From assembly GCF_001419985.1 (NCBI RefSeq), contig NZ_LJAL01000003.1, positions 1 to 64,000 on the forward strand: DNA of 64,000 bases, written 5' to 3'. Of the stretch, positions 25,081 to 30,206 are shown in pieces. Below the pieces are notes generated by a model that was given only the letters and a program-made list of their open reading frames with translations, made no database searches and was not told the DNA's origin. A program made the translations under genes and the position numbers. The first letter of the stretch is position 1; each line of letters begins with the position of its first letter. This DNA is from Loktanella sp. 5RATIMAR09 (GTDB taxonomy: Bacteria; Pseudomonadota; Alphaproteobacteria; Rhodobacterales; Rhodobacteraceae).

Positions 25081-29354
<4,274 letters not shown>

Positions 29355-29382
29355 TAGCAGCAGTCACAAAATGTTCTCAAAT

Positions 29383-29397
29383 GTTCTATAAAAGTTC
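29383..29397. promoter_or_regulatory. LexA box (GTTC-N7-GTTC)
   Basis: GTTC (29383-29386), seven bases TATAAAA, GTTC (29394-29397): an exact match to the alphaproteobacterial LexA consensus. A third GTTC at 29373-29376 precedes it at N6 spacing. It covers the expected -35 area of a -10-like TAATAC at 29410-29415. Confidence 0.7.
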
Positions 29398-29436
29398 TTT
29401 ACAGGCGGTTAATACTGTGAGAACAAAGTAGCAACG

Positions 29437-29451
29437 GAACATGAGGAGAAC
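29437..29451. promoter_or_regulatory. Second LexA-type box (GAAC-N7-GAAC) over the ribosome-binding site
   Basis: GAAC (29437-29440), ATGAGGA, GAAC (29448-29451) is the reverse complement form of the LexA consensus. It overlaps the GAGGAG ribosome-binding site of the microprotein. Another GAAC half-site is at 29421-29424. Confidence 0.55.
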
Positions 29452-29457
29452 ATACCA

Positions 29458-29580
29458 ATGGCTGAAGAGATAAAATCCGTTATCGCACGTTCCCGCGACA
29501 CGATTGTCGCCGATGCGTTGGGTGTTGCTGCCCTCATGGTCATGCTGATTGTTGGATTGGCCTTGCCCGGGCTGATCTAA
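29458..29580 (+). CDS. SOS-type 40-residue membrane microprotein
   Basis: 40 residues, ATG at 29458 with GAGGAG at good spacing. An N-terminal cytosolic helix with mixed charges (MAEEIKSVIARSRDTIVADA) is followed by one membrane helix (VAALMVMLIVGLALPGLI) running to the end. Two LexA-type boxes lie in the 80 bases before it, so I infer SOS control. In Caulobacter, SidA is a 29-residue, LexA-controlled, single-span inhibitor of division; this gene has the same size class, topology and control but no clear sequence identity that I can show. Transcription probably ends at 29726-29761. Confidence 0.75.
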   Translation: MAEEIKSVIARSRDTIVADALGVAALMVMLIVGLALPGLI

Positions 29581-29725
29581 CCTGCCGAAGCGATCGCGCC
29601 CGGTCTGTCACATTGCCCTGTCCCAATAATGCAATGTTTGATGACCTGCCTGTCTGATATCCAAAGCGGGGGTTTTGCCTCTCCCCATGGAAAACTGGAC
29701 CGGGTCGTGATCGTTTTCAAACCTG

Positions 29726-29761
29726 CCGCCGCCATCTGCCCGGATGTGCGGCGGTTTTTTT
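29726..29761 (+). terminator. Rho-independent terminator
   Basis: CCGCCGC-CATC / GATG-T-GCGGCGG, a bulged 11-pair stem with loop TGCCCG, then seven T residues. It closes the transcript carrying the microprotein; the 145 bases between (29581-29725) hold no gene I can support. Confidence 0.85.
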
Positions 29762-30206
29762 ATGCGCTGGCCTGTTGGCTGTGCAGGGCGTCCAAGGTGG
29801 CATCAAAGGCAAGCATGATCGACGCGTGACGGTTCTTGTAATCCTTGGCGGGCTGCAACACCTCAAGATCGCCAAACGGGGCAGGCGGCACGGGGCCATC
29901 GGATTTCAGCATCGCACTCAGGGCATCGCGCCCCGCCTGCACCTGATCCAGCGTCAGCCCGACAATATTGGCCCCCACAACAGCCGCAGCCGCCTGACCC
30001 AAGGCGCAGGCTTTCACATCTTGCCCATAGTCGGTGATCACGCCATCGGTCACTTGCAGATCAACGGTCACGGTAGACCCGCACAAAGGCGCGCGTTTTT
30101 TGGCAGTGGCCGTGGGATGGTCCAAACGCGTGGTGCGCGGCATGTCAGCTGCAAGCGCCAGAATACGCCCCGAGTAGAGTTTGATCAGATCGTTTTCCGC
30201 TGACAT
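29760..30206 (-). CDS. NifU/IscU-like iron-sulfur scaffold protein
   Basis: 148 residues, ATG at 30206. Layout of the IscU/NifU N-terminal fold: 'DLIKLYSGRILALAADMPRT' at the start, then cysteines in APLCGSTVTVDLQV and KACALGQAAAA. The third cysteine of classical IscU is replaced (it ends KNRHASIMLAFDATL), leaving two Cys and a His as possible ligands. This shortened type is widespread in alphaproteobacteria and sits beside hisI here. Divergent from hisI by 66 bases. Role as a cluster scaffold is inferred. Confidence 0.85.
   Translation of the reverse strand: MSAENDLIKLYSGRILALAADMPRTTRLDHPTATAKKRAPLCGSTVTVDLQVTDGVITDYGQDVKACALGQAAAAVVGANIVGLTLDQVQAGRDALSAMLKSDGPVPPAPFGDLEVLQPAKDYKNRHASIMLAFDATLDALHSQQASA

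Follow-up and report, generated by a model that had tools for sequence, protein, structure and literature searches.

The window, by which we mean the whole 64,000-nt stretch of Loktanella sp. 5RATIMAR09 DNA under analysis, contains a 696-aa open frame that we take, from its own sequence, to be recG, and directly after it a compact array of promoter-like elements, a 40-codon frame, a conserved structured RNA and a terminator (Table 1). The original prediction had described a GTTC-N7-GTTC box with a third GTTC, a frame of 40 codons behind a good ribosome-binding site, one C-terminal membrane helix and a terminator downstream, and each of these is borne out by the letters. The box and the further half-site are both there, with copies of GTTC at 29373, 29383 and 29394; AGGAG precedes the ATG, the frame encodes a single C-terminal hydrophobic span, and a hairpin with a T-run follows. 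A simple terminator scan reported none, but the fold of the locus does show the hairpin, about 145 nt past the microprotein stop and ending near 29761. The position just after recG was also correct. The frame was also said to fall below the size threshold of many gene callers; some sources annotate it as 'hypothetical protein', so that it is not always overlooked. The structured RNA 3' of the microprotein frame was absent from that prediction and was found here.

Table 1. Features of the recG-adjacent locus, in coordinates of the window
Feature	Position	Strand	Remarks
Open frame taken to be recG (ATP-dependent DNA helicase)	27264..29354	+	696 aa; conserved upstream neighbour
Extra upstream GTTC half-site	29373..29376	+	10 bp before O1; spacing kept in 80/90 loci
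Operator O1, GTTC-N7-GTTC, likely LexA site	29383..29397	+	90/90 loci; abuts -35-like element
Predicted -35 element, TTTACA	29398..29403	+	TTTACA in 63/90 loci; rest mostly TTTAC- or TTG-type variants
Predicted extended -10, TGA-GAACAA	29418..29426	+	T and G each in 87/90 loci; no T at -7
Operator O2, GAAC-N7-CAAC, degenerate second likely LexA site	29421..29435	-	GAAC-N7-xAAC in 90/90 loci
GAAC-N7-GAAC (second box of the original prediction)	29437..29451	-	overlaps ribosome-binding site; unconserved
Ribosome-binding site, AGGAG	29444..29448	+	AGGAG is the commonest leader 5-mer, 37/90 loci
40-residue microprotein, one predicted membrane span	29458..29580	+	ATG at 29458, stop codon ends at 29580; homologues, pS versus pN, helix model
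Conserved structured RNA	29582..29723	+	long closing stem, internal hairpins, repeated CUGCC/CUGUCC loops
Intrinsic terminator, GCCGCCGCC...GGCGG then T-run	29725..29761	+	RNA fold of locus

Ninety loci were examined, 30 of them (the window included) supplied by a family search and 60 chosen from its listed matches. In every one, GTTC-N7-GTTC (O1) lies 69–115 bp ahead of the ATG, and in 88 a same-strand match to recG is present upstream. The look at relatives that the original prediction had proposed thus recovered both the microprotein and a LexA-type box beside recG. Shuffling the upstream sequences 200 times yielded O1 in 0.19 of the 90 loci on average and never in more than 3. Other spacings of the half-sites, from N3 to N15 within 150 nt, were found in 0–5 of the 90 loci each, except for N6 (81 of 90), which reflects the third GTTC. 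The bare pattern alone is not significant, with three occurrences in the 64-kb window against 1.68 expected, and it is the conservation across loci that makes O1 significant. Across the Loktanella sp. 5RATIMAR09 genome, the bare pattern occurs less often than its reversed control does (93 and 145 matches, respectively), so that LexA regulon predictions made there from the box alone, without conservation, would be mostly noise.

Aligned on O1, the promoter reads roughly TTGTTCnCAAAT-GTTCTnAAAAAGTTC-TTTACA-N14-TGAGAACAAAGnnGCAACA, with O1 directly before TTTACA and a 17-bp spacer between the predicted -35 and -10 elements. A T at -7 is absent from most of the alphaproteobacterial sigma-70 promoters analysed in PMC8407463. 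A second operator-like site, O2, overlies the -10 region and the predicted transcription start. The variable position x of its general form is C in 82 loci, T in four, A in two and G in two, and in 84 of the 90 loci it is offset from O1 by 38. The stricter form GAAC-N7-[CG]AAC was observed in 84 of 90 loci, against 0.61 of 90 in shuffles. The second box of the original prediction lies elsewhere; its exact GAAC-N7-GAAC is indeed present, but any such box within 220 nt occurs in only seven of the 90 loci (the window among them) and at differing places, and it was rejected as a conserved operator. When genomes were scanned blindly for the promoter, at least 119 places were returned, 118 with the microprotein after them and 118 with recG before them; the two exceptions are both cut by the end of the stretch. 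By reckoned transcription start, the leaders of the 90 loci are 15–61 nt long. Their commonest words are ribosome-binding-site-like, and none is found in more than 37 of 90 loci. A conserved leader peptide from the RTGAGAACAAAG motif was considered and discarded, as several genomes, including that of the window, have an in-frame TAG.

The exact box also precedes lexA, recA and uvrA in Loktanella sp. 5RATIMAR09, two radical SAM genes of the same genome (one a putative DNA-repair gene, the other of the PA0069 family) and a frame with a weak match to ImuA (E = 5e-4). The binding of GTTC-N7-GTTC by alphaproteobacterial LexA, on which the original prediction relied, matches the LexA box of Caulobacter, where about 97% of SOS promoters have one box (PMC12700426). 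On this sequence evidence, we strongly infer that LexA controls the microprotein promoter. Two sites at that promoter would imply tight repression, which is what one would expect of a product that stops growth. The main text of a LexA prediction for D. shibae does not mention recG (PMC6473078).

Several further boxes were noted in the Loktanella sp. 5RATIMAR09 genome. At locus L159 (contig 8, around 147271), GTTC-N7-GTTC with a further GTTC precedes, by 84 bp, a frame judged by eye to be TadG-like. Its place beside a Tad-pilus-type frame recalls the D. shibae pilus sites predicted in PMC6473078. At locus L176 (contig 16, around 2101), an exact GAAC-N7-GAAC lies between a frame that by eye resembles lepA and an 87-residue frame with cysteine pairs, which is a candidate further SOS gene and gave no NCBIfam match. 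A box at locus L167 (contig 10, around 88978) adjoins the start of a frame that by eye resembles a DNA-repair protein of the MmcB kind; the piece searched gave no NCBIfam match.

A single-sequence search with the 40-residue protein returned 86 homologues at E-values up to 1, and a profile search gave 386 matches among 7993 scored candidates (120 listed). Among sampled genomes of the same family, taken as Rhodobacteraceae from the named homologues and contigs, the microprotein was matched in 245 of 295 (E up to 0.01), with one copy in each genome listed except for two genomes with two. In a class-wide sample, seven of 385 genomes gave a match; five belong to the same family, and the other two matches are partial, falling inside larger frames of 290 and 495 aa, and were not accepted as members outside Rhodobacteraceae. 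As far as tested, the family thus appears to be found only in Rhodobacteraceae. Fifty same-family genomes gave no protein match; among the 20 of them that were listed, recG could be located in 17. In the 600 nt that follow recG, 14 of the 17 contain a box in one or the other orientation (the exact GAAC-N7-GAAC in nine) and 11 a frame matching a wider profile (E up to 0.05), while three have neither box nor frame. Since boxes and frames follow recG in these unmatched genomes, the gene probably reaches further than the 245 of 295. Presence of lexA, seen in 17 of 20 genomes, led nowhere as a correlate. Outside the family, 25 of 27 recG loci have neither box nor profile match; one (L326) has a box and a profile match on the opposite strand at E = 0.29, and another (L343) has a box and is without a profile match. 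The L343 box, whose genome is small, AT-rich and from a different family, reads GAACAAAAATAGAAC and lies 48 nt after recG, with no matching small frame. Two AT-rich loci of the window's own family (L202 and L203) keep such a box together with very diverged small frames.

The frame shows the mark of coding selection, with a mean pS of 0.65 against a pN of 0.20 over 62 pairs of at least 70% identity. The window protein had no matches among Pfam, NCBIfam, PHROGs and PADLOC profiles, and 71 family members gave four single-member matches, all at E = 0.1 or worse. A search of the PDB with the microprotein had a best E-value of 5.2. Two protein alignments were built, one from the window and 36 of the 86 proteins of the single-sequence search (A1), the other from the window plus 70 of the remaining 89 loci (A2). 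Longer forms of 66–69 aa (P0002, P0075 and P0086) were set aside as likely wrong starts, because their extra N-termini read as translated promoter and leader and because it is the ATG of the 40-residue form that lines up among family members.

AlphaFold2, run on 71 sequences, modelled helices at residues 2–11 and 13–39 with a mean pLDDT of 93.4. Taken together, hydropathy and this model predict a small single-span inner-membrane protein. In the family alignment, D19, G22, L34 and P37 are invariant, and M1, R11, T15, L26, L30 and L36 nearly so. Conservation over residues 2–39 is periodic at 100 degrees (p = 0.00075), and one helical face therefore appears to be constrained. Periodicity of the membrane half alone (residues 18–38) is weaker (p = 0.025) and peaks at 125 degrees. 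A helix with such a conserved face fits packing against a membrane partner, and would suit any such partner. Lysine and arginine average 2.6 in the first 20 residues of the 71 sequences, while the last 20 residues hold a single one in total across all 71. This concentration in the N-terminal half favours an N-in orientation, which is no more than favoured because the net charge of the first 20 residues is close to zero (mean +0.13).

Two words, CTGCCTG and CTGTCCC, recur in the first 150 nt downstream of the frame; each is found in 67 of 88 loci, whereas in 20 shuffles no 7-mer exceeded 16. The fold of 29581–29775 in the window has an energy of -78 kcal/mol (z = -4.19), which none of 200 shuffles equalled. 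We built an RNA covariance model (R1) from 13 seed sequences chosen for likeness, the window excluded. At E-values up to 1, R1 matched 61 of 100 other loci, all 61 behind the microprotein promoter and on the same strand, and gave no match in the remaining 39. On the window, it scored E = 3.3e-4, the sole match below E = 1.9 in the Loktanella sp. 5RATIMAR09 genome. Covariation was counted on 57 aligned matches (A6, 58 sources), the alignment having been fitted to the model. Every modelled pair (23 of 23) shows changes on both sides, against 13.8 in shuffles, and cells with both-side changes number 168 against 35.9, while slid structures collapse. A comparison free of any alignment, in which the arms of the closing stem were swapped between RNAs, gave -27.0 kcal/mol for own arms and -19.6 kcal/mol for swapped ones, and own arms beat all 20 swaps in 33% of cases, compared to 5% expected. 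Compensatory base changes thus go beyond the controls, as they do in a structured RNA.

Of 208 tails, 142 have a recognisable terminator-like end. The loop-word count drew on 130 of the 142; 121 were long enough, of which 112, the window included, are non-redundant. The word YUGYCY occurs 4.0 times per RNA against 0.56 expected, and these words are 73% unpaired compared with 36% elsewhere in the RNA. Values of z below -2 (mononucleotide shuffles) were obtained for 27 of 31 RNAs with the terminator and for 26 of 45 trimmed RNAs without it. An alignment made from sequence only (A3) yielded a consensus structure for the terminator alone, whose hairpin is present in 40 of 40 sequences, these being drawn from tails with a recognised terminator-like end. 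In 84 of 112 RNAs, the antisense fold is at least as stable as the sense fold, which, like the counts for trimmed RNAs, the terminator-only consensus and the loci without a covariance-model match, speaks against the RNA reading. Despite these stable antisense folds, we assign the predicted structure to the coding strand because G-U cells outnumber A-C cells in the sense-strand helices (64 against 20) and because of the terminator and the promoter.

A second covariance model (R2), under strict filters, placed the RNA in 64 of 198 same-family genomes. For 54 of the 64 places, microprotein coordinates were listed; every one of the 54 is on the strand of the microprotein and 4–75 nt (median 13) beyond its final matched codon. 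In 96 further loci, 27 of them the recG loci outside the family, 26 of the 27 R2 matches are behind the promoter pattern, and 69 loci gave no match at E up to 0.5. Across the class, R2 matched three of 190 genomes, and each of the three belongs to the window's family. Rfam gave no gathering-level match in the locus, the best E-value at low threshold being 1. The RNA tail is probably co-transcribed with the microprotein frame.

Most simply, the locus would be an SOS-controlled message in which the frame of a membrane microprotein is followed by a structured RNA. The reading that we prefer, and to which we assign a probability of roughly 0.5, is that this recG-adjacent unit is a LexA-repressed message whose single-span microprotein stalls division and whose 3' end forms a conserved structured RNA. 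LexA would occupy O1 and O2 and block polymerase, as suggested by O1 abutting the -35 element and O2 covering the -10 element and predicted start, and DNA damage would release the promoter. The 40-residue protein would then span the inner membrane once with its N-terminus in the cytoplasm, and the helix face with R11, T15, D19, G22, L26, L30, L34 and P37 would pack against a membrane partner. Such a partner could be, for example, the FtsW/FtsI/FtsN complex, binding to which would stall division while DNA is repaired, and the C-rich loops of the 3' RNA could bind protein or other RNAs. The microprotein and its RNA tail would together be likely to hold back cell division while repair proceeds. 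The target is not named by anything in the sequence; the divisome would be the likeliest membrane partner because of the analogies with SidA (FtsW/FtsN) and YneA (FtsW). The label 'SidA/SulA-like' given in the original prediction denotes a resemblance in plan, namely a LexA-type box and one predicted membrane span.

A more elaborate version, which we hold only tentatively and consider doubtful, is a bifunctional transcript in which a two-operator SOS switch, common to the family, governs both a division-arresting 40-residue membrane microprotein and a multibranched RNA, the repeated CUGCC/CUGUCC loops of which sequester an RNA-binding protein or silence messages. If this were true, damage would act on the septum and on gene expression through one message, and Rhodobacteraceae would have gained their missing SOS checkpoint together with a new RNA family; if the RNA is functional, a dual-function message joins the SOS response. 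Titles and abstract openings returned by literature searches held nothing on division arrest under DNA damage in Rhodobacteraceae (Rhodobacter, Ruegeria, Paracoccus and the marine roseobacters), and those of the open-access literature do not name the microprotein gene or the RNA, which does not mean that they are unpublished. A single candidate that combines a precise promoter with a structured RNA and a helix of which one face is conserved makes the question of division directly testable in laboratory strains.

The microprotein could instead be induced by SOS to modulate another membrane protein, for which a transporter, a membrane protease and the CckA component of the CtrA phosphorelay are examples. 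Damage would then be coupled to gene transfer agents or the cell cycle and not directly to the septum. Gene transfer agents are common in Rhodobacteraceae, and the finding of the microprotein in one bacterial family only, as far as tested, would suit such a role. It would also be in keeping with Rhodobacter capsulatus, in which LexA feeds into CckA/CtrA (summarised in PMC6473078). No sequence evidence points to any such partner, however, and we regard this role as unlikely.

A short hydrophobic span, LexA-type boxes and RNA structure directly after the frame would likewise be expected of an SOS membrane peptide of the TisB/DinQ kind, which would depolarise the membrane and slow growth while the RNA tail controlled translation or stability; dinQ, too, has two putative LexA operators (PMC3567139). 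Such a peptide is nevertheless improbable here, since the conserved helix face with its four invariant residues (D19, G22, L34 and P37) suggests a specific partner and since the leaders are short (15–61 nt), with commonest words that resemble ribosome-binding sites. Toxin-antitoxin loci are typically patchy in distribution, unlike the microprotein gene, which is widespread and syntenic.

The extent of covariation in the RNA (23 of 23 modelled pairs) and the excess of mostly unpaired loop words (4.0 per RNA against 0.56 expected) could also mean that the main product is an SOS-induced small RNA with C-rich loops, to which the microprotein is an accessory or a processing partner. This seems decidedly improbable, because purifying selection acts on the protein and because more genomes yielded the protein (245 of 295) than yielded the RNA with its model (64 of 198, under strict filters). 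A promoter so strikingly constant across loci and a -10 motif unique to this promoter in the genome (up to 2 mismatches) would also be accounted for by some regulator, different from LexA, that recognises direct repeats of GTTC. Such a regulator is very improbable indeed, as lexA, recA and uvrA are preceded by half-sites of identical sequence and spacing and as GTTC-N7-GTTC is the published Caulobacter LexA motif (PMC12700426).

The LexA-repressed, division-stalling message that we prefer would resemble SidA of Caulobacter crescentus, also an alphaproteobacterium, in its LexA-type box and in the very small size and membrane location of its product. SidA is a small membrane protein that acts on FtsW/FtsN (PMC4211646), and a Caulobacter lexA deletion forms filaments because of sidA (PMC12700426). 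In contrast to sidA, the microprotein locus occupies a fixed position behind recG, has a pair of conserved operator-like sites and a conserved structured 3' RNA, and was found in Rhodobacteraceae only, as far as tested. YneA of Bacillus subtilis and SosA of Staphylococcus aureus are SOS-induced division inhibitors, the role proposed here for the microprotein. The single span of YneA directs the protein to the divisome and YneA interacts with FtsW (PMC13396833), but YneA has an extracellular LysM domain whereas the microprotein ends at the membrane. A single-span SOS peptide can also be a membrane-depolarising toxin, as is DinQ (PMC3567139). DinQ and TisB of Escherichia coli are like the microprotein in size, hydrophobic span and LexA control, the last presumed for the microprotein; they are type I toxin-antitoxin loci with antisense RNA. 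In CcaF1-CcsR of Rhodobacter sphaeroides, a small-protein frame shares its message with RNAs that come after it and whose repeated loops are rich in pyrimidines; that system is controlled by a stress sigma factor and its loops are of the CCUCC type. The microprotein locus differs from it in having a LexA-type promoter, CUGCC/CUGUCC loops and one multibranched RNA.
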